Positions 43,247 to 59,674 of a DNA stretch of 64,000 nucleotides are shown here, in pieces (the stretch's first letter is position 1; the number at the start of each line of letters is the position of its first letter). The notes below the pieces were generated by a model that was not told where the DNA came from, did no database searches, and was given only the letters and a program-made list of their open reading frames with translations. Origin of the DNA: Ruminococcus flavefaciens (GTDB taxonomy: Bacteria; Bacillota; Clostridia; Oscillospirales; Ruminococcaceae); NCBI GenBank assembly GCA_023662725.1, contig JAMPIL010000006.1:33229-97228 (forward strand). Direction: 5' to 3'. The position numbers and the translations under genes were made by a program.

Positions 43247-43513
43247 GAAAAAAGAAAATAGTTTCATTAGCAGTATTTATAGCTGCTGCCTCTGCAAGCT
43301 ATTCTAATATTAATGGTTTATGCTTTCAGAAAACGTGAAATCAGTTCATATATGCTGAATAAGATAGAGTATGTATTCTTTGATATGGAAGAACCGCTAG
43401 TTGCCTTTATTGTGGATTATCTGACTGTTATGGGAATGTTTGCAATAATCGGATACTATATGATGGTTGTTTTAAAAATAATAAGTAAAAAAAGGAGGTC
43501 TGTTTCAGTATGA
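43243..43513 (+). pseudogene. Small membrane protein, frameshifted
   Basis: GTG 43243 overlaps the aldo/keto reductase stop by 4 nt and opens VRKKKIVSLAVFIAAASAS, a membrane helix, but this frame ends at 43338. A second frame (open from ~43280, Met at 43313) continues AILILMVYAFRKREIS and contains another helix (DYLTVMGMFAIIGYYMMVV) to 43513, where the stop overlaps the next ATG by 4 nt. The coupling at both ends suggests one original gene broken by a frameshift near 43285-43305. No family recognised. Confidence 0.55.
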
Positions 43514-45171
43514 AAGTAAAAAGATTATTGGCAGGTATCGTTACAGCAGCTTTAGGTCTGTCTATGACGGGCTTTATTTCTACCAGTGCAGACACTAAAT
43601 CGGGAAAAAGCAACTATACAATAGAAGACACCAGAAATTTGCAGGATTTCCTGCTTAAGAAAGAAGCAGGAAATTTAAGCAATGAAAATTATGATTTAAA
43701 CGGTGATGGAGTGTGGAGTGCGTTTGATCTTGCTTTGATGAGGAAAGAATATGTACAGAATCAAAGCGGTGAAAAAACGCTTGTTGTATACTATTCTTTA
43801 GTCTTGCCGGACGATACGGACGCATCAGCCAGTGCAAGCCGTGTAATTGTAGATGGAGATCCTTACGGTACAACAGAGTATATGGCGAAAGTTATTCAAG
43901 AAGAAACCGGCGCAGACTTATTTGAGATTCAGACAGTGCAAGAATATCCCACAGAGTATCGTGATGTTACAAATCAGGCATCACAGGAAAAGGAATCGGG
44001 TTTCCGTCCAGAACTTGCATCTCATATTGACAACATTGACCAATATGATACAATATTTGCAGGTTATCCCAACTGGTGGGGGGATATGCCGATGGCGCTG
44101 TATTCTTTCTTTGATGAGTATGATCTGTCAGGAAAGACTATAATCCCATTCAATAGTCACGGCGGAAGCGGATTTTCTCAGACTGTACAGTCAATTGCAC
44201 AACTTGAACCAAATGCGGAAGTAAGTACAGAGGGGCTGAGTCTTTCAAGAGGAAGCGTTTCCACATCAAGAGATACGATAGCAGAGTGGATCGCAAATTT
44301 GGGTTATCACAAAGAACCGGAGAAAACAGCCAAAAATCTTGTTGCTTATTACTCGGCAAGCGGTACGACAGAAAGAATTGCCAATTTCATTGCAGAAGAA
44401 ATTAACGCAGATGTGTTTGTGATCACACCTGTAAATGAATACACGGACGCAGATCTGAACTGGACTGATTCCAACAGCCGTGTAGTAAAGGAACATAATG
44501 ATCCTGATAACAGACACGTAGAATTAGTACAAATGATTCCGGATAATTTTGAGTCATATGACAATGTATTTATTGGTTATCCGATATGGTGGCAGGAAGC
44601 TGCATGGGTAATTGATAATTTTGTCACAGAAAATGACTTCACTGGCAAGAATGTGATTCCGTTCTGTACGTCTATGGGTTCTCCTTTAGGAGAAAGCGGA
44701 ACGAAGCTTGCGGCAATGGCCGGCACGGGAAACTGGCTTGAGGGAATACGGTTTACAAGCCATTCTTCCAAAGAAGATGTAAAGGAATGGGCAAGGGGGC
44801 TTGATCTGACAAAACAGACAATTGCCAATAAAACATTGATTGCTTACTTGTCTTATCCTCTGTCGGACGGTACGGACGCTAATACAAGTGCAAGCCGTGT
44901 AATAGTGGATGACGAACTTTACGGCTCTGTAGAGTATATGGCGAAAATCATTCAGAAAAATACGGGAGCAGATATGTTTGAGATTCAGCCTGCTGTAAGC
45001 TATGGAGAAGATTTCAATGCAGTTGCGGACCGAGCTTTAGATGAACAGGAAAATGGCGTTTTGCCTGAACTTCTGAATCACATTGAAAATCTCGACCAGT
45101 ATGATACGGTTTTCGTTGGCTATCCGATTTGGCTTGCGTACCACAATTTGATACAATGCACCCAAGCATGA
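43510..45171 (+). CDS. Secreted dockerin - flavodoxin - flavodoxin - (truncated flavodoxin) protein
   Basis: 553 residues. Signal peptide 1-27; dockerin ~36-83 with a clear Ca loop DLNGDGVWSAFDLALMRKEY; flavodoxin_4-like domain 1 (~88-268, AGYPNWWGDMPMALYSFFDEYD); domain 2 (~278-430, YYSASGTTERIANFIAEE, IGYPIWWQEAAW); domain 3 begins at ~438 and repeats domain 1 (SASRVIVDDELYGSVEYMAK). Domain 3 stops abruptly after GYPIW, followed by unrelated LAYHNLIQCTQA. Domain 3 has therefore lost its C-terminal third at the junction with foreign DNA. It would be exported and dock to a scaffoldin: an unusual redox module for a cellulosome. Confidence 0.85.
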   Translation: MKVKRLLAGIVTAALGLSMTGFISTSADTKSGKSNYTIEDTRNLQDFLLKKEAGNLSNENYDLNGDGVWSAFDLALMRKEYVQNQSGEKTLVVYYSLVLPDDTDASASASRVIVDGDPYGTTEYMAKVIQEETGADLFEIQTVQEYPTEYRDVTNQASQEKESGFRPELASHIDNIDQYDTIFAGYPNWWGDMPMALYSFFDEYDLSGKTIIPFNSHGGSGFSQTVQSIAQLEPNAEVSTEGLSLSRGSVSTSRDTIAEWIANLGYHKEPEKTAKNLVAYYSASGTTERIANFIAEEINADVFVITPVNEYTDADLNWTDSNSRVVKEHNDPDNRHVELVQMIPDNFESYDNVFIGYPIWWQEAAWVIDNFVTENDFTGKNVIPFCTSMGSPLGESGTKLAAMAGTGNWLEGIRFTSHSSKEDVKEWARGLDLTKQTIANKTLIAYLSYPLSDGTDANTSASRVIVDDELYGSVEYMAKIIQKNTGADMFEIQPAVSYGEDFNAVADRALDEQENGVLPELLNHIENLDQYDTVFVGYPIWLAYHNLIQCTQA

Positions 45172-46064: not shown

Positions 46065-46114
46065 TTGACACCGTGTCAGAAAGGAATTATAATACAATTA
46101 CTGACATGGTGTCA
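46065..46114 (+). promoter_or_regulatory. TetR-controlled promoter with two operators
   Basis: TTGACA (46065-46070) - 17 nt - TATAAT (46088-46093). The palindrome TGACACCGTGTCA (46066-46078) covers the -35 box; TGACATGGTGTCA (46102-46114, one mismatch) lies just past the -10. The TetR gene is second in the operon, so autorepression is likely. Confidence 0.82.
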
Positions 46115-46140: not shown

Positions 46141-46704
46141 ATGAAAAAGAACATTGGCTCTCAATTAGCCTTATATCCTACTCCCGTAACCGTGATTGGA
46201 GCAATGGATGGAGAAAAGCCAACATGGACGCTGGTTGCCCACATTGGTATTATCGGGCATGACCATGTGCTTATAAGCCTTGCAGCTCCGCACTTTATCA
46301 ACCACTGCATTAAGGAAAATCAGAAGCTGTCCATCAATATTGTGAATGAAGACTTTTTGCCGGAGGCAGATTACAGCGGAGCAGTCAGCGGCGCAAAAGC
46401 TGATAAGTCAGGACTGTTTCAATATGAGCTTGGGGAATTGGGAACTCCGATCATTGAAAAATCGCCGCTGACAATGGAATGCAATGTTGTGGATGTATAT
46501 AATACGCCGAATTTTGAAAGTTTTATCTGTACGATTGATAATACTTATGTGGAGGAAGCGTATCTGAATGAGGACGGAAAGATCAACTACCGGACATTAA
46601 AGCCTGTGCTGTTTGAATTTCCGACCTATGAGTATCTGAAAACGGGAGAAGTGATCGCACCATGCTTATCCTATGCAAAAGAGAGAAAAGAGGGAGAAAA
46701 ATAA
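46141..46704 (+). CDS. Flavin reductase family protein (flavoredoxin-like)
   Basis: 187 residues of FMN-binding split barrel type: LYPTPVTVIGAMDGEKPTW at the N-terminus, ISLAAPHFINHCIKENQKLSINIV, and YSGAVSGAKADKSGLF. Uses NAD(P)H to reduce FMN, or carries FMN itself. First gene of the TetR-controlled redox operon. RBS AAAAGGAG. Confidence 0.9.
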   Translation: MKKNIGSQLALYPTPVTVIGAMDGEKPTWTLVAHIGIIGHDHVLISLAAPHFINHCIKENQKLSINIVNEDFLPEADYSGAVSGAKADKSGLFQYELGELGTPIIEKSPLTMECNVVDVYNTPNFESFICTIDNTYVEEAYLNEDGKINYRTLKPVLFEFPTYEYLKTGEVIAPCLSYAKERKEGEK

Positions 46705-46705
46705 A

Positions 46706-47332
46706 ATGCCGAAAGGATCACCGGAGCTGACACAGGCCAGAAAAGATGAGATCATTGCCGCCTGCGAGCAGTTATATCGGACAATGAGTTTTAAGGAGAT
46801 TACCTTAAAGGAGATCGGGAAGGTAACTTCTTTTACGAGGACTTCCATCTACAATTATTTCCATACGAAAGAGGAGATTTTTCTTGCCCTGCTCAAGAAA
46901 GAGTATGAGCTGTGGATTGAGGAACTGCAGATGATCATGGAGAGCAATGAAAAACTGAGCCGGACTGCTTTCGCGGAAAAGATTGCCATGAGCCTGGAGC
47001 ATCGTCAGCAGCTTCTTAAGGTCATGTCCATGAACATGTATGACATGGAAGAAAACAGCAGGATGGAAAGGCTTGTGGAATTTAAGCAGGTTTATGGGAA
47101 ATCGTTAAAGACGTTTGCGGAGCTTGTCTCCAAGTTTTTTCCGGTCCTGAACGCGGAAGGACGCCAGACCTTTGTTTATCAGTTTTTCCCATTTATTTAT
47201 GGGATCTATCCCTATACATCTGTAACAGAGAAGCAGAAGGAAGCAATGAAGGAAGCGGGTGTAGGCTTTGCCTATATGTCGGTCTACGAGATCACACTGA
47301 AATGTTTACTGAGGCTTTTGCCTGACGAATAA
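46706..47332 (+). CDS. TetR family transcriptional regulator
   Basis: 208 residues from ATG 46706 (GGGAG upstream). N-terminal HTH: FKEITLKEIGKVTSFTRTSIYNYFHTKEEIF (about 32-62). The helical C-terminal domain binds an unknown ligand. Likely binds the two TGACAC-type palindromes upstream of the flavin reductase. Confidence 0.92.
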   Translation: MPKGSPELTQARKDEIIAACEQLYRTMSFKEITLKEIGKVTSFTRTSIYNYFHTKEEIFLALLKKEYELWIEELQMIMESNEKLSRTAFAEKIAMSLEHRQQLLKVMSMNMYDMEENSRMERLVEFKQVYGKSLKTFAELVSKFFPVLNAEGRQTFVYQFFPFIYGIYPYTSVTEKQKEAMKEAGVGFAYMSVYEITLKCLLRLLPDE

Positions 47333-47361
47333 AAATAATATTTTGAGGAGGAATCTATTCT

Positions 47362-48278
47362 ATGAATTTACCTAAGATTGCAATGGGCGCATGGGCATGG
47401 GGCGATACAGACGGTTATTTTGGAAATACGATGGAAGGGGACGAGTTCCGCCCGATTTTTGATGCGGCAATGAAAACAGGCATGAACCTTTGGGATACTG
47501 CGACGGCATACAGCAATGGGGAATCGGAGAAGATACTCGGAGGCTTTGTAAACGATGCAGGACGGGAAAATGTGATCGTGTCTACGAAGTTTACACCCCA
47601 GATGGCAGCTATGTATGATGACAGCGTGGTAAAAATGTGCGAGGCTAGTCTGGAACGCATGGGCATGGAATACTTTGACATTTACTGGATTCATAATCCG
47701 GTTGGCGCACCGGAGTACACAAAACAGCTTATCCCCCTGCTTAAAGATGGCAGGGTAAGGAGCGTCGGCGTATCGAACCACAACCTTGCACAGATGCCAT
47801 ATTGAAAGAGGCAGGCTACCGTGTTTCTGCTGTCCAGAACCATTACAGCCTGATGAACCGTTCTTCTGAGGAATCAGGGATCATTGACTACTGTAAGCAG
47901 AACGGCATTGTATTTTATGGATATATGACGTTGGAACAGGGGGCGCTTTCCGGCAGATATGATACGCAACATCCCTTCCCGGAAGGCAGTGCAAGGGCGA
48001 AGGTTTTCAATCCGATGCTGCCACAGATTGAAGTCATTACAGAGGAACTGAAAAGGGTTGCCGATTCCCACGGCGTTTCAGCAGCGCAGATTGCGACTGC
48101 CTATGCGGTAAATAAAGGGGTACTTCCGATTCTGGGTGTGACGAAGGTATATCAGGTGGAAGAAGCTGCCAAAATGGCGGACATTGTTCTCACGGCGGAA
48201 GAAATTGCAGCGCTGGAAGCGGCTGCGGATAAGTCCGGCGCAGATTCCATACAGTTTTGGGAAAGCCGGATGGATTAA
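47362..48278 (+). pseudogene. Aldo/keto reductase, frameshifted
   Basis: First frame 47362-47805 holds LWDTATAYSNGESE, VSTKFTPQM and YWIHNPV (Asp, Tyr, Lys, His of the active site) and ends VSNHNLAQMPY-stop. The second frame 47802-48278 begins KEAGYRVSAVQNHYSLMN and completes the barrel. A small deletion near 47795 (normally a helix of ~8 residues between AQ and KEAG) caused the shift. Close in sequence to other gut-clostridial aldo/keto reductases. Confidence 0.82.
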
Positions 48279-48304
48279 AAATTCAGTTTGGAGGAATGGA
48301 CAGG

Positions 48305-48841
48305 ATGAAGATTATAATGCTGGAAGGCAGCCCCAATAGGAATGGTTCTTCTGCCATGCTTGCAGGAGAATTTGCAAGAGGGGCAAAAGAGGCAGGGCAT
48401 GAGACGGTGGTAATCTCGGCTGCACACAGTAGGATCAGTCCCTGCACCGGATGCATTTCATGCGGTTATGACGGTCCCTGCGTACAGAAGGATGACATGG
48501 AGTATGTACGGGATGAAATCCTTGGAGCAGATATGCTGGTATTTGTCACGCCGCTTTATTATTATGGGATGTCTGCTCAGCTAAAGATTCTGGTTGACAG
48601 ATTTTGTGCCATGAATGGAAGCATTCAGAGGAAGAAAATGCGGTCAGCCCTGATTTCAGCGGCATGGAACAGTGACGGCTGGATATTTGATGCACTGGAG
48701 GCCCATTACCATACACTGGTAAAATACCTGAATTTTACCGATCAGGGCATGGTTCTGGGAAGGGGCTGCGGGACGCCCTCTATGACAGGGAACAGCCGGT
48801 ACATGATGGAAGCGTATATGCTTGGAAAGTCACTGGCATAA
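48305..48841 (+). CDS. NADPH-dependent FMN reductase / flavodoxin-fold protein
   Basis: 178 residues: FMN loop LEGSPNRNGSSAMLAGEF (6-23), Cys cluster CTGCISCGYDGPC (about 46-58), TPLYYYGMSAQLKILVDRF. Same family as the genes at 37780-38942, but with GC-richer codons. GGAGG at 48290-48294; ATG 48296 is an alternative start. Confidence 0.88.
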   Translation: MKIIMLEGSPNRNGSSAMLAGEFARGAKEAGHETVVISAAHSRISPCTGCISCGYDGPCVQKDDMEYVRDEILGADMLVFVTPLYYYGMSAQLKILVDRFCAMNGSIQRKKMRSALISAAWNSDGWIFDALEAHYHTLVKYLNFTDQGMVLGRGCGTPSMTGNSRYMMEAYMLGKSLA

Positions 48842-48863
48842 AAGAAGCAAGGAGGCAGGCAGA

Positions 48864-49676
48864 TTGAAAAGGAAATGGATTGGCTGTCTGGCAGCAGCAA
48901 TGTTCTTTGTCCTTAGTGCCTGTGGAACTGGCGGCGCGCCAGAGCAGGTATCTACGGCGGATGAAGGCAGGCAGGAAATAACGGCGGAGCTGACAGACAG
49001 TACGGAAAATGAGGATTCAGAGGACGCCCCCATAACGGAAAGGGAAAATACCGGAAAAATTTTAGTCGCATATTTTACAAGGCTTCCAAATACGGAATCA
49101 GGAGATGATCTGGATGTGGTGGTGCAGGGCGGCGGCCCTTACGGGGCAATCGAGGATAATTTTGAAAATGCGGATATGGACGCTATTTCTTCAGCCAGCA
49201 TCACTGTGACAGATGCAGGCGTAAAGGGAAATATGGAGACTGTAGCCGGATGGATTGCAGAGTATACAGGAGCCGATCTTTTTTCCATCGAGACGGTTGA
49301 AAAGTATCCGGTAGATTATGATACGCTGATTGAACAGGGTGGGGAAGAACATAGGGGACAATACCGCCCGGAACTGGCAACGCACATAGAAAATATAGAT
49401 CAGTATTCGGTAATCTATCTCGGTTATCCGAACTGGTATCAGGATATGCCCATGGCACTGTACAGCTTTTTGGAAGAATATGACTTTCAGGGAAAGACAA
49501 TTATACCTTTTGCCACCAGTGCCGGGAGCGGGCTGGCAAATACCATTTCTTCCATAGCTGATATGGAGCCGGAAGCGGTAGTGGTCAAAGAAGGGCTTTC
49601 CCTTGGAATGAGGGATGTCAAAGACAGTCAGGCACGGGTTTTGGAATGGGTAGACAGCCTTGGGATTGAGCCATGA
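48864..49676 (+). CDS. Flavodoxin-domain lipoprotein
   Basis: 270 residues from TTG 48864 (AAGGAGG upstream). Lipobox LSAC in MFFVLSACGTGG marks a lipoprotein; Glu/Asp/Thr-rich linker (~25-65); flavodoxin_4 domain (~70-270) with ILVAYFTRLPNTE, ETVEKYPVDYDTL, YLGYPNWYQDMPMALYSFLEEYD. Anchored outside the membrane. FMN binding is expected from the fold but unproven. Confidence 0.85.
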   Translation: MKRKWIGCLAAAMFFVLSACGTGGAPEQVSTADEGRQEITAELTDSTENEDSEDAPITERENTGKILVAYFTRLPNTESGDDLDVVVQGGGPYGAIEDNFENADMDAISSASITVTDAGVKGNMETVAGWIAEYTGADLFSIETVEKYPVDYDTLIEQGGEEHRGQYRPELATHIENIDQYSVIYLGYPNWYQDMPMALYSFLEEYDFQGKTIIPFATSAGSGLANTISSIADMEPEAVVVKEGLSLGMRDVKDSQARVLEWVDSLGIEP

Positions 49677-49703
49677 TATATGTAAGAAGGAGATGATAAG
49701 AGC

Positions 49704-50324
49704 ATGAGAAAGAAAAAATGTATGGCAATATTTTTGGCAGGTATATGCATTGTTACGACAATGTTATCAGGATGTGGAAATGCAGATACAAATGAACCGT
49801 CAGATGTACTCGCAGATGTGGCTGGAAATTCCACTGAGGAAACTGTGAGTGCAGAAGACAGTGATGCAGACGAACCGGGAACAGATGCTGAGGCGGCAGA
49901 AAGCGGGAGCGATGGAATGACAGCGGGAACCTATCCGGATGGCAGTTCACCGGAATTTGGCGATACCAGACTGAGGCTCACCATAGGAGAGCAGGAAGTG
50001 ATCATCCGTTTATATGAGAATACGGCGGTGGATGCATTTTTAGAAAGGCTGCCGTTGGAGGATTTGAACTTTTTTGACCTGTCGGGAATTGAAAAACCGG
50101 TAGAACGGCCGGAAGAACCTTTTTCTCTTGGTGAGGAAACGCCGGGATATGATCCGGTGACGGGAGATATGGTGATTTACAGGCCGTGGGGGAATTTTAC
50201 AATCTTTTATGGAGATTTCAGGCACTCTGATGAACTTGTGCCATTGGGACAGGTAGAAAGCGGTCTGGAGATATTAGCCGGTCAGACAGAAGACTTTCAG
50301 GGTATGCTGGAAATCATGGAATAA
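49704..50324 (+). CDS. Cyclophilin-like lipoprotein
   Basis: 206 residues: lipobox LSGC (MLSGCGNADT), acidic linker, and a C-terminal cyclophilin-like domain (~92-206, RLTIGEQEVIIRLYENTAVDAFLERLP, DMVIYRPWGNFTIFYGD). This domain type is often found near flavodoxin and aldo/keto reductase genes in gut Firmicutes. Role unknown; prolyl isomerase residues are not evident. Confidence 0.82.
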   Translation: MRKKKCMAIFLAGICIVTTMLSGCGNADTNEPSDVLADVAGNSTEETVSAEDSDADEPGTDAEAAESGSDGMTAGTYPDGSSPEFGDTRLRLTIGEQEVIIRLYENTAVDAFLERLPLEDLNFFDLSGIEKPVERPEEPFSLGEETPGYDPVTGDMVIYRPWGNFTIFYGDFRHSDELVPLGQVESGLEILAGQTEDFQGMLEIME

Positions 50325-50385
50325 GCAGTTGGGAGCAGGAAATATAGATTTGATTGCCTGATAAAGCAGGCAGACAGGAGCAGAG

Positions 50386-51396
50386 ATGAAGTATACAAAT
50401 TTAGGAAGATCAGATTTGAAAGTATCCCGCATCTGTATGGGATGTATGGGGTTTGGTAATGCGGCCACCGGTCAGCATAGCTGGACAGTGGATGAAAGTC
50501 AGACGAGGGAGATCATCCGGCATGGTCTGGAGCTTGGCATCAATTTTTATGATACGGCCATTGCCTATCAGAATGGGACCAGTGAGCAGTTTGTGGGAAA
50601 GGCGCTCCGGGATTTTGCAAAGCGTGATGAATATGTGATCGCTACAAAATTTACCCCGCGCACGCAGGATGAGATTGATTCCGGTGTCAGCGGACAGCAG
50701 CACATTGAAGATTACATCAATAAGAGCCTTGAAAACCTCGGCATGGATTTTGTTGACTTATACATTTACCATATGTGGGATTACCATACCCCGATGGAGG
50801 AGATCATGGAAGGGCTCCATAATGTCGTAAAGGCGGGAAAGGCCCGGTATATCGGCATATCCAACTGTTTTGCATGGCAGCTTGCCAAAGCGAACTATTA
50901 TGCAAGGTCACAGGGTTTCCCGGAATTTGTGTCCATTCAAGGGCATTATAACCTGATCGCCCGTGAGGAGGAACGGGAAATGGCGCCTTTCTGCTATTCA
51001 GAAAATATTGCCATGACGCCATACAGCGCACTGGCAAGCGGCAGGCTGTCCCGCCATCCGGGAGAAACTTCAAAGCGTCTGGAGCAGGATGCTTATGCAC
51101 GGTTCAAATATGACGCAACAGCGGAGGCAGATAGAAAAGTCATTGAGCGCGTGGAAGAAATTGCAGAAAAACGTGGCGTTTCCATGACGGAGGTTTCCCT
51201 TGCATGGCTCCTTGGGAAAGTAATCGCTCCTGTGGTGGGGGCAACGAAGTTTTCCCATGTGGATGGAGCGGTGAAGGCAGTGGATCTGGAATTGACAGAA
51301 GATGAGATCAGTTATCTGGAAGAACTGTATGTTCCCCATGCCCTTACAGGCGTTATGGCACAGAACGGCAAGCAAAAAGCAGGAAATGTTGTGTAA
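50386..51396 (+). CDS. Aldo/keto reductase
   Basis: 336 residues. Active-site residues in FYDTAIAYQNG (Asp, Tyr), VIATKFTPRT (Lys), YIYHMWDYH (His); cofactor region VVGATKFSHVDGAVKAVDLEL. Full length and intact, unlike the copy at 47362. RBS AGGAGCAGAG. Confidence 0.92.
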   Translation: MKYTNLGRSDLKVSRICMGCMGFGNAATGQHSWTVDESQTREIIRHGLELGINFYDTAIAYQNGTSEQFVGKALRDFAKRDEYVIATKFTPRTQDEIDSGVSGQQHIEDYINKSLENLGMDFVDLYIYHMWDYHTPMEEIMEGLHNVVKAGKARYIGISNCFAWQLAKANYYARSQGFPEFVSIQGHYNLIAREEEREMAPFCYSENIAMTPYSALASGRLSRHPGETSKRLEQDAYARFKYDATAEADRKVIERVEEIAEKRGVSMTEVSLAWLLGKVIAPVVGATKFSHVDGAVKAVDLELTEDEISYLEELYVPHALTGVMAQNGKQKAGNVV

Positions 51397-51422
51397 TCAT
51401 ATCAATTCAGGAGGATAAGAAA

Positions 51423-51764
51423 ATGGAGAAAATTGTTCAGACAGCTGGTAGAAAAGACCTTGGCGAATTTGCACCGGATTTTGCACATTATAATGATGAT
51501 ATTTTATTCGGGGAAAACTGGAACAATCAGGATATTGACCTGAAAACCCGCTGTATCATAACGATGGTTGCGCTTATGTCTTCCGGTATTACGGATTCCT
51601 CGCTGGTCTATCATCTGGAAAATGCAAAAGCGCACGGCGTGACGAGGGCGGAGGCTGCGGCGATTATTACCCATGCCGCTTTCTATGTGGGGTGGCCCAA
51701 GGGCTGGGCAGTATTCCGGCTGGCAAAGGATGTGTGGAAAGAGGAAACGGTGGGAGAGATATGA
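51423..51764 (+). CDS. Carboxymuconolactone decarboxylase family protein
   Basis: 113 residues, helical: DLKTRCIITMVALMSSG (about 41-57), HLENAKAHGVTRAEAAAIITHAAFYVGWPKGW. Resembles the gamma-carboxymuconolactone decarboxylase-type branch rather than the C-x2-C AhpD thiol branch. Such proteins accompany aldo/keto reductases in gut clostridial clusters. Its stop overlaps the next ATG. Confidence 0.88.
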   Translation: MEKIVQTAGRKDLGEFAPDFAHYNDDILFGENWNNQDIDLKTRCIITMVALMSSGITDSSLVYHLENAKAHGVTRAEAAAIITHAAFYVGWPKGWAVFRLAKDVWKEETVGEI

Positions 51765-52840
51765 TGAAAAAATGGATTTCTATTTTCCTCTCGCTGCTTT
51801 TGCTGTTTTCCATAGCTGGCTGTGGACAAAGCGCGGACAGGACAGAGAATCCCGTTTCTTTAGGGCAGACGGAGCAGATCGAAGATGATACAGTAGAGCA
51901 GGCGGAGCAGACCGCAGATGATACAGAAGGAAGCGAAGAAATGCCGTCTGAGGTGGAAAATACCAATATTGGCGAGGAGGATGGATCTCCTGTCGTGTAT
52001 ATGACCACGGATATAAGCCCAGAGGGGCTGATGGCAGTCTATGAGGCATTAGGAGCCGAACCGGATGGGAAAATTGCGGTGAAACTTTCCACGGGAGAAA
52101 ATGGGAGCAATTATCTGCGTCCGGAACTGATTGGGGATTTGGTGCAAAAGCTGGATGCCACCATTGTGGAATGCAATACGGCCTACGGCGGCCAGCGCGC
52201 GAATACGGCGATGCACTACCAATTAGCAGAAGACCATGGATATACGGCAATCGCAGATGTGGACATCCAGGATTCCAATGGTTCCATGACGCTGGAAGTC
52301 TCCGGGGGCGATAATCTGACAGAGAACTATGTGGGGGAGCATTTTGTCGATTATGATTATTATGTGGTTCTCTCACATTTCAAGGGCCATGCCATGGCTG
52401 GCTATGGCGGTGCGATCAAGAATATCTCCATAGGCATTGCATCATCAGAAGGAAAAAGCCATATCCATACAGGTGGAAAGGGCGGCAGTATGTGGAGTGC
52501 GGATCAGGATTCTTTTTTGGAATCCATGGCGGAAGCCGGAAAATCGGTGACAGACTATCTGGACGGAAATATTCTGTATATAAATGTCATGAACCGGCTT
52601 TCTGTAGACTGTGACTGTGACGGAAGCCCTGCAGAGCCGGATATGCATGACATAGGGATTCTGGCTTCTTTTGACCCGGTGGCAGTGGATCAGGCTTGTA
52701 TTGATCTTGTATATAACGCTGAGGAAGGAGCTTCTTTGGTAAATCGGATCGAATCGAGAAACGGGCTTCATACGCTAGAGCAGGCGGAAAAAATCGGGCT
52801 TGGCAGCAGGGCGTATCAATTGGTTTCTATTGATGAATAG
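51764..52840 (+). CDS. DUF362 domain lipoprotein
   Basis: 358 residues from ATG 51764 (GGGAGA 6 nt upstream; ATG 51761 also possible). Lipobox IAGC in FSIAGCGQSAD, an acidic linker, and a DUF362 domain (~75-358, YYVVLSHFKGHAMAGYGGAIKN, DPVAVDQACIDLVY). Many DUF362 proteins carry a ferredoxin domain; this one does not. Function unknown, exported. Confidence 0.85.
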   Translation: MKKWISIFLSLLLLFSIAGCGQSADRTENPVSLGQTEQIEDDTVEQAEQTADDTEGSEEMPSEVENTNIGEEDGSPVVYMTTDISPEGLMAVYEALGAEPDGKIAVKLSTGENGSNYLRPELIGDLVQKLDATIVECNTAYGGQRANTAMHYQLAEDHGYTAIADVDIQDSNGSMTLEVSGGDNLTENYVGEHFVDYDYYVVLSHFKGHAMAGYGGAIKNISIGIASSEGKSHIHTGGKGGSMWSADQDSFLESMAEAGKSVTDYLDGNILYINVMNRLSVDCDCDGSPAEPDMHDIGILASFDPVAVDQACIDLVYNAEEGASLVNRIESRNGLHTLEQAEKIGLGSRAYQLVSIDE

Positions 52841-52857
52841 AGGAAAGGCGGCAGGAT

Positions 52858-53750
52858 ATGTTGGAGATGCTGCATCGGGAATTTGTTTATATCTGGTACT
52901 ATTTCAGTATCCAGTTTGAACAGATTTTCAGATACTGGATATTTGGAATGATGATCGGGTCCGTCATATCCGTTTTTGCGAAGGATAAAATACATAAACT
53001 GTTTGACGGTATGCGGGATAAAAAGCTGGGTCTGTTCGGCATTATTCCTGCCTGTATATTGGGAATCCTTTCTCCTTTATGTATGTATGGGACGATTCCC
53101 ATTGCCGCTTCTTTTTCAGAAAAAGGGATGCGGGATGACTGGCTGGCTGCGTTTATGATGGCTTCTATTCTCTTGAATCCGCAGCTTATGATCTACAGCG
53201 CGGCGCTTGGAGGGACGGCGCTTATCATACGTCTGGTATCCTGCTTTCTGTGCGGTGTGGCAGCGGGGTTTTTGGTGTTCTTCTGTTTCAGAGGAAAGCC
53301 GTTCTTCAATTTCTCCGGATTTGCCGCGCCCCATAGCCGGGATACTGACCCGAACCCAGCGATGCGTCTGTTAAAGAATTTCGGACGGAATGTGAAGGCA
53401 ACCGGGCCAATGTTCCTGCTGGGAGTGCTGTTGTCAGCATTATTCCAGCGGATACTTTTGCGGAATTTTTCGGAAAAAACAATGAAGGCTTTGGCGTGCT
53501 AATGGCGGCAACGATAGGTGTTCCGCTTTATGCCTGCGGAGGGGGAACGATTCCTCTTCTTGGGCAGTGGCTTTCGGATGGGATGAGTATGGGAAGCGTA
53601 GCGGCATTTATGATTACCGGCCCAGCAACAAAGATCACAAATCTTGGTGCGGTGAAGATTGTCCTTGGCATGAAGCATTTTATCTTTTATATCGTTTTTG
53701 TCATGCTTTTTTCCCTGCTTGCCGGGATACTGGTAAATTTAATCCTATAA
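52858..53750 (+). pseudogene. ArsP/DUF318-like permease, frameshifted
   Basis: First frame 52858-53502: membrane helices including LSPLCMYGTIPIAASF and SILLNPQLMIYSAALGG, ends ALFQRILLRNF...-stop. A second frame is open from before 53445 (IPADTFAEFFGKNNEGFGVLMAATIGV) and continues VPLYACGGGTIPLL to 53750. The break is near 53440-53450. ArsP-like permeases export organoarsenicals or small molecules; here the partner genes suggest another substrate. Confidence 0.8.
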
Positions 53751-53778
53751 AAAATATAATTTCAGGAGGTTTTGTATC

Positions 53779-54519
53779 ATGAAAAAATCAAACAAAATAA
53801 TTGGACTTGTATGTATGGCGGCAATGCTGGTCTGTCTTACGGCCTGTGGTTCTTCCAGTGGGGATCAGGTAACAGATGGAACGGCTGATGTACCGGAAAC
53901 TACCGTTTTACAGCAGGAGGAAACGGATGAAAGTCTGGGTACCGGGGAAACGGAGCAGATCGGGGAGCAGGATGCTGATGTGGCAGAACCGATGGATACA
54001 GAGAATGAGACGGAAGAAGAAAACAGCAGGGTGCTGGTGGCTTATTTCTCCGCAACAGGGACAACAAAGACATTGGCTGAGTATGCTGCAGATGCCATGG
54101 GAGCAGATCTGTATGAGATCGTGCCGGAAGAGCCGTATACAGAGGATGATCTGAATTATAATGACCGTAATACAAGGGCAACGGTAGAGCAGGATGACAA
54201 AAATGTCCGGCCTGCGATTTCGGGCAGTGTGGAAAATATGGATCAGTATGAGATCGTATTCCTTGCTTTCCCGATTTGGTGGGGAGAGGAACCCCGTATT
54301 ATGGATACCTTTGTGGAAGCCTACGATTTCTCCGGAAAAACAGTGATCCCCTTTTGTACATCCGGCGGCAGCGGAATCGGCTCCAGTGGGAAAAATATGC
54401 AGAGCTTAAGTACGGGTGACGCTACATGGCTGGACGGTGAGCGTTTAAGCAGTTCATCTTCCCGTGAGGACATGGTGGACTGGATCAATGGGCTTGGATT
54501 GGATGTGGAGGCAAAGTGA
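53779..54519 (+). CDS. Flavodoxin-domain lipoprotein
   Basis: 246 residues. Lipobox LTAC in LVCLTACGSSSG, long Glu/Thr linker (~25-85), flavodoxin domain (~88-246) with the phosphate loop YFSATGTTKTLAEYA, FLAFPIWWGEEPRIMDTFVE and TVIPFCTSGGSGIG. Overlaps the next gene by 4 nt. RBS AGGAGGT. Confidence 0.88.
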   Translation: MKKSNKIIGLVCMAAMLVCLTACGSSSGDQVTDGTADVPETTVLQQEETDESLGTGETEQIGEQDADVAEPMDTENETEEENSRVLVAYFSATGTTKTLAEYAADAMGADLYEIVPEEPYTEDDLNYNDRNTRATVEQDDKNVRPAISGSVENMDQYEIVFLAFPIWWGEEPRIMDTFVEAYDFSGKTVIPFCTSGGSGIGSSGKNMQSLSTGDATWLDGERLSSSSSREDMVDWINGLGLDVEAK

Positions 54520-56717
54520 AGCAGAAACAAATCATAAAGAGAATCGTTGATGTGGCAATGCTTTTTATGCTGCCTGTCCTCCTGTCAGAGATACTGACAG
54601 GACAACAGACGCATGAATGGCTTGGGGTTTGTATGGTGCTGCTGTTTCTTATGCACCATATCCTCAACCTTGGCTGGATGCGGAATCTGTTTAAGGGAAC
54701 GTATTCCCCGCTGCGGTGTGCGGGGACAGCCCTTAATCTCTTATTGCTTTTTGATTTTGTGGCCCTGGCATTCAGCGGCATCCGGATGAGCGGATATGTT
54801 TTTGTGTGGCTGCCCTTTTCGGGAGGGATGAGGATTGCCCGCACGTTACATCTGTTCGCTTCCTATTGGGGACTTATATTGATGTCCCTGCATACCGGGA
54901 TGCATTGGAAACTGATTCTGGGTATGTGTAAAAAGAAACTGCCAGTGATAAAATCAGGGGATATTTTTCTCTGGCTGCTGCGCGGAGCTGCTTTTGGCAT
55001 CGTTCTTTTTGGTATGTATGGATTTGTGCAGCAGAAAATGACGGACTATCTTTTTATGCGGACACATTTTGTCTTTTTTGATGAAACGAAATCTATGTTT
55101 GTGTTTTATTTGGAAGTGGCTGCCATGATCGGTATGTTTATCATGGCAGGACATTATTTCGGTGCAGTCTTACAAAAATGGAGGTGTGGTGAAATGGGAA
55201 AAAGGATTGCAAAGGTTCTGGCATTTTGTATTCCGGTTGTTTTGATCGCCGTTGTGATTTTTTCCCTGAATCATGGCGGAAGCAAGCCGGGAAATGCATG
55301 GGGTGACGGCTCTCTTTCACAGGAAGAAAATGCGGAAAGCCGGAATCCTTCACAGGAAGAAACGGTACAGTCACAGCCGGAAAGCCCTGCGCTGCGGACA
55401 GATATAGAGGACGGGTTTATCCTGATTTCGGGTGGTACATTTGAAATGGGAAGTCCAGACGATGAAGCATGGCGGAGTGATGATGAAACGCTGCATACCG
55501 TAACGGTAAGCGATTTTTATATCAGTCCATATGAGCTGACACAAAAAGAATATCAGGACATTTGTGGAGAAAATCCAAGCAATTTTATGGGCGATGACCT
55601 TCCGGTAGAAAATATCTCATGGCTGGATGCAGTAGCTTACTGTAATGCAAGAAGTGAGAGGGATGGGCTGACCCCGGTATATGTAATAGAGGGGGAAAAC
55701 GTGTCATGGGACCGCAGTGCGGACGGATACCGTCTGCCTACGGAGGCGGAATGGGAGTATGCCTGCCGTGCGGGGACAGCGACTCCGTTTAATACAGAAA
55801 CTTCCATTGGAGCGGATGAGGCAAACTATTATGGCCATTATCCCTATATGATCGAAGATAATTATTTTTCTCAAGGAAATCTGGATACAAAGCCTGGTGA
55901 ATACCGGCAGACAACGGTGGAAGTGGATAGTTTTTCCCCGAATGGATACGGGCTTTATAATATGCATGGGAATGTCAGCGAATGGGTATGGGACACCTAT
56001 GGCAGTTATGGTGCAGATGGAGAAACAGACCCCACCGGGGCGGAAAGCGGAAACCGGAAGGTATACCGGGGCGGAGGCTGGAACGATTTTGCAAAAAATA
56101 TGCGTTCTGCTTATCGGGCCACTTTAGAGGCGGATGCAGCCAGCTTCAATTTAGGGCTGCGTCTGGTGCGTGGGGCCGTTGCCGGGGAACATGGGACGGT
56201 ACAGTCCGGTCAGGCAGATAAGAGAACCGAAGGCGGCGGCAAGGTTTTGATCGCATACTTTTCATGGGGAGGCAATACAAGGGGCGTCGCAGAGGAGATA
56301 CAGGCACAGACAGGAGCGGATCTGTTTGAGATTACCTGTGTGGAACCGTACTCGAATGATTACAACACAGTGCTTGAGGAAGCGCAGCGTGATCAGAATG
56401 CACAGGCCCGCCCGGAGCTTGCCGATTATGTGGAGAATATGGACGAGTATGACATTGTGATGATCGGTTTTCCAAACTGGTGGGCCTCGATCCCTATGCC
56501 GATCGCATCCTTTTTGGAAAAATATGATTTTTCCGGGAAATTGATCTTGCCTTTTTGCAGTCACGGTGGCGGACGTTTTGGACAGAGCCTTACGGCCATA
56601 GCGAAGCTGGCACCGGATGCTGAACTGGGCGAGGGGTTATCCGTACATTATTCCGGTGGAAGTGAACTGCCGGGGGATGTGGAAGAATGGTTGAAAGAAA
56701 ATAACATTATTCAATAA
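54516..56717 (+). CDS. DUF4405 membrane domain - FGE/SUMF domain - flavodoxin fusion
   Basis: 733 residues. Residues 1-252 form about six membrane helices with histidines at 33, 47, 48, 112, 126 and 130, as in the DUF4405/cytochrome b-like membrane domain. Residues ~300-555 are a formylglycine-generating-enzyme-type domain (GGTFEMGSP, DAVAYCNARS, RLPTEAEWEYACRAGTATPF, NVSEWVWD, RGGGW). The copper-binding Cys pair normally following RGG-W is absent (RGGGWNDFAKNMRSAYR). Residues ~576-733 are flavodoxin (YFSWGGNTRGVAEEI, GFPNWWASIPMPIASF). The soluble domains should lie outside the cell. Confidence 0.85.
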   Translation: MKQKQIIKRIVDVAMLFMLPVLLSEILTGQQTHEWLGVCMVLLFLMHHILNLGWMRNLFKGTYSPLRCAGTALNLLLLFDFVALAFSGIRMSGYVFVWLPFSGGMRIARTLHLFASYWGLILMSLHTGMHWKLILGMCKKKLPVIKSGDIFLWLLRGAAFGIVLFGMYGFVQQKMTDYLFMRTHFVFFDETKSMFVFYLEVAAMIGMFIMAGHYFGAVLQKWRCGEMGKRIAKVLAFCIPVVLIAVVIFSLNHGGSKPGNAWGDGSLSQEENAESRNPSQEETVQSQPESPALRTDIEDGFILISGGTFEMGSPDDEAWRSDDETLHTVTVSDFYISPYELTQKEYQDICGENPSNFMGDDLPVENISWLDAVAYCNARSERDGLTPVYVIEGENVSWDRSADGYRLPTEAEWEYACRAGTATPFNTETSIGADEANYYGHYPYMIEDNYFSQGNLDTKPGEYRQTTVEVDSFSPNGYGLYNMHGNVSEWVWDTYGSYGADGETDPTGAESGNRKVYRGGGWNDFAKNMRSAYRATLEADAASFNLGLRLVRGAVAGEHGTVQSGQADKRTEGGGKVLIAYFSWGGNTRGVAEEIQAQTGADLFEITCVEPYSNDYNTVLEEAQRDQNAQARPELADYVENMDEYDIVMIGFPNWWASIPMPIASFLEKYDFSGKLILPFCSHGGGRFGQSLTAIAKLAPDAELGEGLSVHYSGGSELPGDVEEWLKENNIIQ

Positions 56718-56753
56718 AACATTTTATGAACAAGGCAAGCCTATCTTGCCCCG

Positions 56754-56788
56754 AAGGTCAATCTGCTTTGTGTGGATTGGCCTTTCTG
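56754..56788 (+). terminator. Terminator of the redox operon
   Basis: AAGGTCAATC / GATTGGCCTT stem with 11-nt loop, then TTTCT. A second small hairpin GGCAAG-CCTAT-CTTGCC precedes it. Confidence 0.75.
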
Positions 56789-56939: not shown

Positions 56940-57374
56940 ATGCCATCTCCTTCCAACGAAGACCGCATCTGTGCCATGTTTGATTCATTCAGTAAGACGG
57001 TATCGCGGAACTTCATCAGAAATTTAGATCGGGCCGAGGGCAACCGGGGCAAGCATTTTGCAGAGGAACCGGCAGACTATATTCTTGAATTGTTAGGCCA
57101 TGAGGACAAGTATCCTTCCGAATCTTTCGTGCTTTATGCGGGCGGACATTCCTGTGTGGTGGAGAGCGAAACTTTATATAAAGCACTTCTATCCTTGCCG
57201 GAGAAGCAGCGGGACGTCCTCCTTTTGGACTTCTGGCGCGACCTTACCGACGGGGAAATTGCGGAAGAATTGGAGGTAACTACCCGCACGGTCTACAATT
57301 TAAGACAGCGTGCATACAAAGCAATACGAAAATTTTATGAGCGGGAACGCTTATACCCATGGACTAAACTATGA
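56940..57374 (+). CDS. Sigma-70-like factor of a conjugative element
   Basis: 144 residues with a region-4-like C-terminus: LPEKQRDVLLLDFWRDLTDGEIAEELEVTTRTVYNLRQRAYKAIRKF (about 82-128). Matches small ECF-like sigma/HTH proteins of Firmicute ICEs. RBS GGGAGGTAG. Confidence 0.85.
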   Translation: MPSPSNEDRICAMFDSFSKTVSRNFIRNLDRAEGNRGKHFAEEPADYILELLGHEDKYPSESFVLYAGGHSCVVESETLYKALLSLPEKQRDVLLLDFWRDLTDGEIAEELEVTTRTVYNLRQRAYKAIRKFYERERLYPWTKL

Positions 57375-57579
57375 CCTAATTAAGCAAGCGGTTCACGGCG
57401 ACGAGGCAGCCCTTACGGAAATTTTGCGGATATACGAGCCTTTCCATAATTCCCTTTGCACCCGCGAGGTGCTGGGGAGCGACGGCAGAATCCATAGGGA
57501 GATTGACGAGGACAAAAAGCAGCAGGTACAGATGCACCTTGTTGAAGTGATCCAGAAAAAATGGAGGGAACTGATATGA
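57337..57579 (+). CDS. Conjugative-element helix-turn-helix protein
   Basis: 80 residues from ATG 57337, overlapping the sigma gene. DLIKQAVHGDEAALTEILRIYEPF is the start of the HTH_16 type domain encoded beside such sigma factors in Tn916-like elements. Its stop overlaps the next ATG. Confidence 0.75.
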   Translation: MSGNAYTHGLNYDLIKQAVHGDEAALTEILRIYEPFHNSLCTREVLGSDGRIHREIDEDKKQQVQMHLVEVIQKKWRELI

Positions 57580-58391
57580 ACCAATTACTGCCAGACTTGT
57601 TTTCCTTCGCCTATGTTCCAAGCTGGTACTGCCAGCTTGACGAACTGGCGGAGCTGGCCCGCCCGGAGCCGTGGCGTTTCCGGGAACCTATATACTCAAC
57701 CAAAAACACAGATACTCCGATATTAGAGCGGTATATCCACGCAATCTTCAAAAAGCAAGCGATTGACTATAACGAGGAAAAAAGCCCGGAGAACGCAGCG
57801 CGGTATTTCCATGTGGAGAATGAATACGCCTGCTTCCATACCGGCCTGTATACAAAACGGTACAAGGCGATTTATGCCTGCTTTGACCGGAACAAGCGGC
57901 AGGCCAGTATGCTGGACTGGTATTTCCGGGGCTTTGCGGACGAGCTTTCCCCATGGCTGAAATATGTAAGCCCGCTTCCGCAAAAGCCCAGCTACTATAT
58001 GACGCAGTATGGCGTCAACTACAACCCGGAGTGGCCGATACGGGTAAACATAGACCACATTTTGGGCGACGAGGAGAATGTATCCCGTCTGCCTGCAGGA
58101 GTCCGCGACGCGCAGAATCTGCCCCTGCTACTTGAAACGGCAGTAGAACTGGCGCGGCGGAAAGCGGTCATTGAGCCGAGCATTGTGGTGCCGCGGGGCT
58201 ACCAGGGGAGGGTGCAGTATCTTCTGCCGATCTGTCTGACCGATATGGAGAACCCCGACCTTGCTATGACCCTCACCATCATGGACGGGTATTATCTGGG
58301 TAACACCTGCCTGACCTTGGAGATGGCATACCTGAACGCCCGTCTGCTGGCGAGGCCGGTGGCTCCGTGGCTGGCGGAGCTTGTCATGTAG
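57576..58391 (+). CDS. DUF3825 domain protein
   Basis: 271 residues from ATG 57576, with TGGAGGG upstream. LFSFAYVPSWYCQLDELAELARPEPW opens the domain; GQQ-like C-terminal VQYLLPICLTDMENPDLAMTL follows. DUF3825 proteins are common in ICEs and beside toxin-like genes; the function is unknown. Confidence 0.85.
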   Translation: MNQLLPDLFSFAYVPSWYCQLDELAELARPEPWRFREPIYSTKNTDTPILERYIHAIFKKQAIDYNEEKSPENAARYFHVENEYACFHTGLYTKRYKAIYACFDRNKRQASMLDWYFRGFADELSPWLKYVSPLPQKPSYYMTQYGVNYNPEWPIRVNIDHILGDEENVSRLPAGVRDAQNLPLLLETAVELARRKAVIEPSIVVPRGYQGRVQYLLPICLTDMENPDLAMTLTIMDGYYLGNTCLTLEMAYLNARLLARPVAPWLAELVM

Positions 58392-58462
58392 GAAAAAATC
58401 ATAGCAGGTCATATACTCTCTTTCGCCGGGCAGCGGCGGCGACAGGAAGGAGCGTATATGGG

Positions 58463-58666
58463 ATGCGCAGGAAGAAGGAGGAACAGCGACATGAGATAAA
58501 GACAGGGATGCGTCCTGTCCACTGCCCGAAATGCGGGAAGCGGGTTATGGACGCAGGGATAGATACAAAGATGCAGTTCATTGCCCCGGAGAAGGGCCGG
58601 TATCCTGATTTTATGATAAAGTGCAGGCACTGTGGCGCGGATATTGGGGTAATTAAAACTGAATAG
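58463..58666 (+). CDS. Cysteine-rich KTR-like zinc-ribbon protein
   Basis: 67 residues from ATG 58463. Two C-P/R-x-C-G pairs (HCPKCGKR and KCRHCGAD) about 30 residues apart form a zinc ribbon. Resembles Cys_rich_KTR proteins of conjugative elements. AGGAAGGAG lies 10 nt upstream. Confidence 0.7.
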   Translation: MRRKKEEQRHEIKTGMRPVHCPKCGKRVMDAGIDTKMQFIAPEKGRYPDFMIKCRHCGADIGVIKTE

Positions 58667-58676
58667 AGGAAACATA

Positions 58677-58989
58677 TGCCGAATGCCCCGGACAGACAGC
58701 CGGGGCTTACCGGATAGCTGCGGCAATACGGCAGTCCACATAAGGAGTGTATATGGGGACGGGGAACGGACAGCGAAGCCGGGAAAACAGTACGACGTTT
58801 GTTTGAGCATGATGCACGGTGGGGAGATTTCATTCCTAAAAAGTGGTCGAACCACCACGATACCATCTGAAACAGGATGGAGACGACATTGAGCCTGACA
58901 GGCGGCACTTTTTGTGCTGCTTGCCAGGCTCTTTTTTGTTTGCTGCGGCCAGGGTGCCGCCTGCCGGGCTCCGAAAGGAGAACGGCAAA
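58677..58989 (+). other. 313-bp gap between ICE-type and phage-type genes
   Basis: Several tiny ORFs exist (for example 58753-58806 after AAGGAG, 17 codons; 58809-58892, 27 codons) but none is convincing. The region contains the hairpin GTGGT-CGA-ACCAC near 58842-58854 and a strong terminator at 58891-58937. It may be a joint between two mobile modules. Confidence 0.45.
58891..58937 (+). terminator. Rho-independent terminator
   Basis: GAGCCTG-CAGGC-GCAC / GTGC-GCTTG-CAGGCTC long imperfect stem with T5 loop and TTTTTT tail. Confidence 0.88.
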
Positions 58990-59376
58990 ATGAAGATCAA
59001 TTACACATTTGCAAATGGGGAAAGTTCGGAGGTCGAGGTGAACGAGGAAATCGGCACATTTATCCTTGATTCCAGACGCGAAGAGGAGAACCTTGGCAGG
59101 AAGGAGCGGTACCATTGCTACTCCATGGATGCGGCTGATTATGAGGGGATGGATTATGCGGATACAGAAACGCCGGAAACCGCACTGGAACAGGAAACGG
59201 AAGCACAGCGGATGGCGGAAGTCATGGCTGCGATGCCGGATGTCCAGAGGCGGCGCCTCCTGCTGTATGCAGAAGGGAAAACGCTGCGGGAGATCGCCCG
59301 GATGGAAGGGGTGGACCATAAGGCTGTGAAAAAGTCTGTTGAGGCGGCAAAAAAATTTTTCAGAAAAAATTTCTGA
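58990..59376 (+). CDS. Phage-type sigma/HTH regulator
   Basis: 128 residues from ATG 58990 (GAAAGGAGAAC upstream). C-terminal region-4-like HTH: MPDVQRRRLLLYAEGKTLREIARMEGVDHKAVKKSVEAAKKFF (about 79-121). Such genes head replication modules of clostridial prophages. Confidence 0.75.
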   Translation: MKINYTFANGESSEVEVNEEIGTFILDSRREEENLGRKERYHCYSMDAADYEGMDYADTETPETALEQETEAQRMAEVMAAMPDVQRRRLLLYAEGKTLREIARMEGVDHKAVKKSVEAAKKFFRKNF

Positions 59377-59455
59377 TACGGGTCCCCAAAACAGCCTCCA
59401 AATCTCCGTATAGTGAAGGACATAAAAACGCAGTCCTTCAGAAAGAGGTGGATGC

Positions 59456-59674
59456 ATGAAACACACATTGAGGATCAGTGTTTCCAAAAAGCCGGTGAAT
59501 GGCGGCATTGTTGCCTGCCGCAGTGTCTCCGTGAGGGAGCGTTTCCTGCGCTTTCTCCTTGGGGATAAGCAGCGGCTGACCATCATCGTGCCAGGCGATT
59601 CCGTCCGGGAACTGGCAATCAGTGAAGTCATGGAAGGAGGAAACGTACATGGGAAAAGTGAAGTTACTGCTTGA
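59456..59674 (+). CDS. Small phage-module hypothetical protein
   Basis: 72 residues, basic, RBS AAAGAGGTGG. MKHTLRISVSKKPVNGGIVACRSV, with LRFLLGDKQRLTIIVPGDSVREL. The end overlaps the next gene. Function unknown; resembles small proteins at this place in phage replication modules. Confidence 0.6.
   Translation: MKHTLRISVSKKPVNGGIVACRSVSVRERFLRFLLGDKQRLTIIVPGDSVRELAISEVMEGGNVHGKSEVTA

Follow-up and report, generated by a model that had tools for sequence, protein, structure and literature searches.

The twelve genes at 46141-56717, all on the + strand of a 64,000-nucleotide stretch of Ruminococcus flavefaciens DNA (the window; it lies on C66, one of the 70 contigs that make up a 3.1 Mb genome, and ends where the contig ends), are taken here as one predicted TetR-controlled operon, which probably encodes an inducible electron-export chain. 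This reading draws on a gene set conserved relative to control stretches, the histidine pattern of a DUF4405 cytochrome, an additional transmembrane (TM) segment in fusion proteins that occur in six genera, a flavinylation-type motif confined to exported flavodoxins, the presence of ApbE in the genome and in related clusters, kin clusters in Klebsiella, Escherichia coli and Citrobacter, TetR operators, and heme binding and flavinylation published for homologs (Huang et al. 2024, PMC11334425). Intergenic gaps run from -4 to 61 nucleotides (nt), with one promoter and a terminator-like hairpin, and thus bear out the twelve same-strand genes with short or overlapping junctions described in a first-pass annotation. 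Its gene identities agree with Pfam, the order being Flavin_Reduct, TetR, aldo/keto reductase (AKR), FMN_red, Flavodoxin_4, Cyclophil_like2, AKR, carboxymuconolactone decarboxylase (CMD), DUF362, ArsP_1, Flavodoxin_4 and DUF4405+FGE-sulfatase+Flavodoxin_4, except that the first AKR and the permease are frame-broken and that the CMD gene had not been named. Five exported products had been claimed and five were found, i.e. four lipoproteins (lipoboxes LSAC, LSGC, IAGC and LTAC, by eye) and one membrane fusion; six products are cytosolic (two AKRs, FMN_red, flavin reductase, CMD and TetR). The features are as follows.

46065..46093, +, sigma-70 promoter, TTGACA-17-TATAAT, 12/12 consensus matches
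46066..46078, no strand, putative TetR operator copy 1, TGACACCGTGTCA, from a palindrome search
46102..46114, no strand, putative TetR operator copy 2, TGACATGGTGTCA, from a palindrome search; similar two-site layout in sister loci
46141..46704, +, flavoredoxin-like flavin reductase, cytosolic; PF01613, PDB flavoredoxin 3bnk 79.7 bits
46706..47332, +, TetR-family regulator, presumed operon repressor; TetR_N, TetR_C_34, homologs start MPKGSPELT
47362..48278, +, AKR1, frame broken near 47802; PF00248 in two frames
48305..48841, +, FMN_red flavoprotein, iron-sulfur flavoprotein-like, cytosolic; PF03358 72.2 bits, CX2CX2CX5C
48864..49676, +, flavodoxin lipoprotein A (FldA) with insertion and flavinylation-type motif DAISSAS; PF12682 82.2 bits, lipobox LSAC
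49704..50324, +, cyclophilin-like lipoprotein; PF18050 78.1 bits, lipobox LSGC
50386..51396, +, AKR2, cytosolic; PF00248 234.7 bits
51423..51764, +, CMD-family protein without CxxC; PF02627 63.8 bits
51761..52840, +, DUF362 lipoprotein; 153.9 bits, lipobox IAGC
52858..53750, +, ArsP_1-type permease, frame broken near 53496; PF03773 in two frames
53779..54519, +, flavodoxin lipoprotein B (FldB), without insertion; PF12682 188.1 bits, lipobox LTAC
54516..56717, +, fusion of a six-TM DUF4405 cytochrome, a seventh TM segment, and extracytosolic FGE-like and Flavodoxin_4 domains (topology predicted); Pfam, alignment, hydropathy
55180..55196, +, in-frame ribosome-binding-site (RBS)-like sequence and ATG before the seventh TM segment, a possible separate FGE-flavodoxin start; sequence scan
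56753..56785, +, terminator-like hairpin, 14 pairs

The last gene encodes the fusion, with Pfam scores of 36.2 bits for DUF4405 (54516-55200; PF14358, cut-off 26.7), 165.5 for FGE-sulfatase (PF03781) and 101.2 for Flavodoxin_4. A membrane-FGE-flavodoxin fusion had been described in the first-pass annotation, and it is present; the description overlooked that the membrane part is, as judged from its sequence, a DUF4405-type (heme-b) cytochrome and that the FGE domain is without its catalytic cysteines. Histidines 33, 47, 112 and 126 are conserved in all 22 DUF4405 proteins compared, and His 130 in 21 of them; heme b binding has been demonstrated for a DUF4405 homolog (Huang et al. 2024, PMC11334425). 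Alignment points to six helices in DUF4405, to which the fusions add a seventh hydrophobic segment; counted by simple hydropathy, the fusions have 7 (window), 8 (locus L072), 7 (L187) and 6 (L046) segments, and the stand-alone DUF4405 proteins of L060 and L042 have 6 and 5, respectively. In the window protein, the loop before helix 7 contains four Lys/Arg and one Asp/Glu and the stretch after it three Lys/Arg and ten Asp/Glu; because positive charge precedes helix 7 and negative charge follows it, the FGE-like and flavodoxin domains are predicted to lie outside. The internal RBS-like sequence with ATG was found only in the window among the five fused proteins recognised by the script, and not in those of L046, L072, L294 and L295.

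The full-length fusion occurs in at least eight of 396 genomes of the family, spread over six genera (at most two candidates being scored per genome), and in none of the seven congeners listed. A contig search with a generic FGE motif, which is not a census, matched nearly the whole fusion query in at least five loci (L071-L074 and L076) among the 80 retained, from Clostridium, Lachnospiraceae, Clostridia and Solobacterium metagenome-assembled genomes. Carriage by phages was considered and rejected: among the best 80 of 226 confirmed IMG/VR matches (32-45% identity), 79 cover the FGE part only and one (L191, 32% identity) spans FGE and flavodoxin. Plasmid matches all fall below 60% identity. 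A sister FGE-flavodoxin protein (L052:10772-12445) has a different N-terminal extension in place of a lipobox or dockerin, possibly another anchor; by eye we take this extension to be copper-amine-oxidase-N-like.

FldA has an insertion of ~47 residues after strand 1, carrying ENADMDAISSASITV, such that 69 residues separate it from strand 2 compared with 22 in most; within the operon FldA alone has both insertion and motif, neither being present in FldB or the fusion flavodoxin. Motifs were called as D-x4-[AP]-[ST], which we take to be the flavinylation consensus, and export by a simple hydropathy rule. In a census of the window and loci L012-L065, L071-L074, L151-L190 and L294-L311, 119 distinct Flavodoxin_4 domains were counted, domains of one protein being counted apart; 96 have an export signal, 18 have none and 5 were unassigned, proportions that are biased since the loci were chosen by similarity. 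The flavinylation-type motif occurs in 25 of the 96 domains with an export signal (23 of the 25 that have the insertion, and two more in a shorter insertion), whereas it occurs in none of the 18 without, five of which have the insertion. Residues at positions that we presume, from flavodoxins, to form the FMN site (phosphate-loop, aromatic and GGSG-type) are kept in FldB and partly in the fusion domain (by eye).

All 11 Flavodoxin_4 matches of the source genome fall in two clusters, on C66 (the window) and C1, and each is judged by eye to belong to a frame bearing a signal peptide, a lipobox or a membrane part, the start of one C1 frame (L042:7357-8433) being uncertain and its lipobox-like stretch internal. 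C1 flavodoxin proteins bear the motifs DAVTSAS, DASTHAT and DAVASAT, and an FMN_bind protein at another site (L314) bears DAVSGAT. An intact lipoprotein copy of ApbE is present on C11, and ApbE is found inside the related DUF4405-flavodoxin clusters L061, L184, L186 and L190. The earlier view that surface flavodoxins are unusual was overstated, both given the proportion with export signals in the (biased) census and because extracytosolic Flavodoxin_4 proteins were published in 2024: in PMC11334425, DUF4405 and flavinylated Flavodoxin_4 are described together, extracytosolic flavodoxins are said to show signs of flavinylation, and flavinylated proteins are presented as one known route of extracytosolic electron transfer in bacteria.

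The neighbourhood is conserved. The sample comprised, out of 391 genomes of the class, the 14 others whose listed match extends over both FGE and flavodoxin (up to two candidates scored per genome); neighbours were called by phmmer at ≥30 bits, and 20 further stretches from these genomes served as controls, several of the 14 stretches being cut by contig ends. Near this FGE-flavodoxin match we observed AKR2 in 10 of 14, flavin reductase and CMD in 8 each, TetR in 6, DUF4405, FMN_red and DUF362 in 5 each, ArsP in 3 and the cyclophilin-like protein in 2, and LysR (with a C1 query) in 11; in the controls all operon families scored 0 except DUF362 and ArsP with 1 each, and LysR was found in 0 of 20. 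A neighbourhood search had been proposed as a check on the first-pass annotation, and absence of the neighbourhood from every other genome as its refutation; the neighbourhood does recur in other genomes.

Two palindromes, TGACAccGTGTCA and TGACAtgGTGTCA, lie 36 bp apart on either side of the operon promoter. With one mismatch at most, the palindrome occurs at nine sites in 97 kb covering six loci with a TetR homolog, being present in four of these (three sites in L050, two in L052, three in L054, one in L058), and at none in 261 kb of 14 loci without a TetR homolog or in 395 kb of the 20 control stretches; when two mismatches are tolerated, the three totals become 25, 1 and 3, respectively, the two remaining TetR loci (L049 and L053) having two-mismatch sites. 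A two-site promoter of matching layout precedes the flavin reductase gene in L052, L053, L054 and L058. The start of TetR is at 46706, not 46673, and its frame is open. Terminator-like sites number 17 in the window against 9.3 expected.

Overall, the cell-envelope flavin redox pathway under TetR suggested in the first-pass annotation is well supported by the conserved neighbourhood, operators, export signals and transmembrane cytochrome; the flavinylation-type motif and the adjoining dockerin-flavodoxin gene were missed there. We envisage that TetR would bind the two palindromes around the single promoter until released by an inducer. In the cytosol, the flavoredoxin-like flavin reductase and the iron-sulfur-flavoprotein-like FMN_red, going by their families, would take electrons from NAD(P)H or ferredoxin and both would reduce the heme-b DUF4405 cytochrome, through which electrons would cross the membrane in an MsrQ-like manner. 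The seventh TM helix is predicted to place the FGE-like and flavodoxin domains outside, and because these share a chain with DUF4405, the first acceptor would be tethered to the cytochrome. The lipoprotein flavodoxins A, presumably with covalent FMN, and B would spread electrons over the surface, and dockerin-bearing flavodoxins may carry them on to the scaffold in cellulosomal relatives and the source genome. Substrate-binding or auxiliary roles are envisaged for the cyclophilin-like, DUF362 and FGE-like domains, the cytosolic AKR and CMD proteins may act on the inner side within one shared stress or electrophile response, and plant-derived aldehydes or quinones are our leading guess for the terminal acceptor; in the literature, we found nothing on stress induction of such clusters. 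Because a defined switch governs a polypeptide that unites cytochrome, binding-type domain and flavodoxin, the system should be testable via one promoter.

Just upstream of the operon, and probably on its own transcript, lies a gene for a secreted dockerin-bearing protein:

43510..45171, +, secreted protein with a dockerin-like module and three Flavodoxin_4 domains, the third cut short; Pfam

The three flavodoxins score 247.6 bits, and the dockerin-like module, at 43600-43758, scores 18.9 bits with Dockerin_1 (below the cut-off of 22.9), or 22.9 with neighbours; the truncated third flavodoxin, which has no continuation in any + strand frame, adjoins a phage-type repressor. The source bacterium is of the cellulosome type, given 80 dockerin matches in its genome and a group of cohesins on C11 (8 of 9 cohesin matches, over the cut-off, within 6 kb). 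The only relatives that the dockerin has in this genome at E≤0.01 are two flavodoxin proteins on C1 and, both named by eye, an esterase-like frame at 36681-37196 of the window and a deacetylase-like protein in L070. The second cluster (L042, C1:30000-49999) contains these two dockerin-flavodoxin proteins, flavodoxin and cyclophilin-like lipoproteins, DUF4405, a broken ApbE, and NusG_II-like, AKR, CMD and LysR proteins, with phage-like helicase and DUF3825 genes nearby; its FGE-flavodoxin frame is also broken.

A C1 dockerin alone (53 residues) matched 47 places in 17 of the 396 family genomes, in six genera. Thirty of these places gave 32 distinct frames; removal of two weak ones (L332:2682-3128 and L333:2-454) and addition of the window protein left 31 proteins, whose cargo comprises Flavodoxin_4 (18), Cyclophil_like2 (14), AKR (6), DUF362 (1) and FGE (1). 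At least one operon family is present in 24 of the 31, a share that stands without a matching census of other dockerin subtypes and that partly reflects shared descent, because the query dockerin comes from a flavodoxin protein. The remaining seven are two Peptidase_S9-like proteins, one CotH, two beta-helix proteins (whose dockerins are weak and ordinary), one without a Pfam match and one 86-residue fragment. The module has one canonical calcium loop (by eye), and the Dockerin_1 profile matches 4 of the 31 at E≤0.001. Exported dockerin-bearing AKRs were seen at L343:154-1359, L324, L325, L339, L345 and L346; all six, three of which are cut at locus ends, keep the Asp, Tyr, Lys and His that we take to be the catalytic tetrad. 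We know of no NAD(P)H source for AKRs outside the cell.

These observations suggest that the dockerin-like subtype marks a redox module predicted to be mounted on a cellulosome or cell-surface scaffold. Single-repeat R. flavefaciens dockerins bind ScaE and ScaH cohesins (PMC5301203); dockerin-flavodoxin fusions were not found described in the open-licence literature, where the papers listed for dockerin together with flavodoxin or flavoprotein include none on such a fusion by title. We tentatively propose, as a possibility short of an expectation, that the surface scaffold of cellulosomal ruminococci bears a redox chain fed from the membrane, in which the one-loop dockerin subtype carries flavodoxin, cyclophilin-like, AKR, DUF362 and FGE-like modules, the DUF4405-FGE-flavodoxin fusion supplies electrons, and reducing chemistry, e.g. 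on lignin- or ferulate-derived aldehydes or quinones, takes place beside fibre-degrading enzymes. If this subtype binds cohesin, then redox parts, among them extracellular AKRs with a kept catalytic tetrad, add to the hydrolytic functions of cellulosomes.

With respect to the other operon products, CX2CX2CX5C, which we take to be the motif of iron-sulfur flavoproteins, is present in eight of nine FMN_red proteins, including that of the window, the ninth being a short frame. A role for the CMD protein as an AhpD-type peroxidase is rejected given the absence of CxxC, and a PDB search at E≤0.1 gave no matches for the DUF362 or cyclophilin-like protein. PF00248 positions 1-146 and 151-290 (of 291) of AKR1 lie in two adjacent frames, and ArsP_1 is likewise matched across two frames, the halves having been profile-searched separately with the sequence left unmended. 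Both are single frames in sister loci L050, L052 and L054, and the breaks may be mutations or sequencing errors. At 38400-43246, running up to the dockerin-flavodoxin gene, lies a further group of AKR, FMN_red, LysR and SDR genes (identified by eye) whose GC resembles that of the host; its FMN_red also has a cysteine motif, CX2CX2CX6C. Directly after the operon, 56940-64000 comprises phage-like early genes (sigma factor, DUF3825, exonuclease, ssDNA-binding protein and DNA polymerase), within which the contig ends.

Outside this phylum, a Klebsiella plasmid encodes a flavodoxin with DGFSGAS, DUF4405, a cupin, CMD, a second flavodoxin and FGE. By eye, the last four begin in a signal-like manner, and the first flavodoxin has a short, doubtful start. 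Part of this cluster is matched in 89 of 5426 E. coli genomes, in two of them over ≥80%, and annotated kin clusters exist in E. coli and Citrobacter. LysR is found on a Rhizobium plasmid, together with DUF4405 and a diverged FGE, and on a Microvirga plasmid, where it accompanies cupin, SDR, AKR, flavodoxin and FGE next to paoABC (aldehyde oxidase); a Bacteroidota plasmid match has FGE-type genes alone, with neither DUF4405 nor flavodoxin annotated nearby. On enterobacterial plasmids and one E. coli chromosome (L271, L315, L316 and L347), cupin-CMD clusters with flavodoxin are placed under a two-component system labelled 'heavy metal'; DUF4405 is present in L271, L315 and L316 and absent from L347.

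Several observations weigh against an electron-export chain. The exported domains with neither insertion nor motif number 69 of 96, so that the published remark on signs of flavinylation fails for most exported domains here, and a stricter motif, DxxSxA[ST], is fitted by four domains only. The operon genes do not include apbE, the ApbE of the C1 cluster is broken, and among the 14 sister loci, several of which run off their contigs, DUF4405 is present in only five and ApbE in none. Hydropathy does not give a clean seven segments in every fusion, and no terminal oxidoreductase is recognisable. Because the AKR1 and permease frames are broken, the operon may also be decaying in the source genome. 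It is unlikely, however, that it is simply a horizontally acquired block without present function in this strain: such a block would fit the GC content (47.7% versus 38.7% for positions 1-43000, and 53.9% in the phage-like right part), the absence of the fusion from the listed congeners, the two broken operon frames together with the broken C1 ApbE and FGE-flavodoxin, and the phage-like genes on the right, but 10 of the 12 frames are intact, the promoter is perfect and the operators are intact.

That the operon serves cytosolic electrophile or quinone detoxification, with the exported proteins forming an envelope repair or protection side arm and not an outward electron chain, is doubtful yet deserves consideration. 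The six cytosolic products are consistent with it, as are the enterobacterial kin beside nitroreductase, hydrolases, AKRs, efflux pumps and a two-component system, and the Microvirga relative adjoining paoABC; the exported parts are, however, multiplied in sister clusters L050, L052 and L187, and DUF4405 recurs. The exported flavodoxins could instead, without any redox role, serve as apo modules for ligand binding or adhesion, in the way of the FGE-like domain, which in 20 of 20 proteins, the window included, is without either of the two cysteines near the C terminus that we take to be catalytic, such that one partner already seems non-catalytic; moreover, none of the operon genes is recognisable as a flavin supplier. 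The retained FMN-site positions and the covalent flavinylation of relatives (PMC11334425) nevertheless make this improbable. Because the catalytic cysteines are absent, in the alignment with 1y1e as well, we reject envelope sulfatase or formylglycine maturation, the role implied by the FGE name, by the PF03781 score and by a match to PDB 1y1e, a formylglycine-generating enzyme (78.9 bits); the best PDB match is in fact a treponemal variable protein (91.8 bits), with PorK (70.2 bits) ranking close, and the chance of such a role is very slight.

An electron-export chain would have a precedent in MsrPQ with Fre, where a cytosolic flavin reductase feeds a heme-b membrane protein, which feeds an outside enzyme. 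The operon resembles this in the order of its predicted parts and differs in that no MsrP-type molybdoenzyme is present among the twelve genes, the outside partners being flavodoxins. Listeria-type extracellular electron transfer (Ndh2, EetAB, PplA) had no such annotation among the operon Pfam matches; no genome-wide search for it was made. The enterobacterial cluster (NZ_CP141562 and NZ_CP069945), ordered as two-component system, flavodoxin, DUF4405, cupin, CMD, flavodoxin and FGE, shares with the operon DUF4405, flavodoxin (DGFSGAS in NZ_CP141562), CMD and AKRs, as well as an FGE-like protein in NZ_CP141562; in contrast, its proteins are separate, cupin replaces the cyclophilin-like protein, control is by a two-component system, and FGE is absent in the E. 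coli example.

The group-2 dockerins of R. flavefaciens (PMC2930009 and PMC5301203) likewise have a single calcium-binding repeat, but those are described as retaining the first repeat, in a C-terminal module (PMC2930009), whereas in the flavodoxin-linked subtype the second is kept and the module is mostly N-terminal. The word flavodoxin is absent from both papers; because PMC2930009 reports 155 domains without known function attached to dockerins, a dockerin-flavodoxin case may be hidden among them. The words DUF362, aldo and cyclophilin are absent from Meheust 2021 (PMC8238504), and FGE, formylglycine and lipoprotein from the main text of PMC11334425. The closest known system is that of Huang et al. 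2024 (PMC11334425), with which the operon shares DUF4405 with conserved histidines and exported Flavodoxin_4 with a motif-bearing insertion, and from which it differs in the joining of cytochrome, FGE-like domain and flavodoxin into one chain, the absence of the motif from most exported flavodoxins and of apbE from the operon, TetR control and dockerin-borne members. This kind of system has thus been known since 2024; what is new is the fusion, the TetR regulation, the many exported flavodoxins without a motif and, above all, the putative dockerin mounting.

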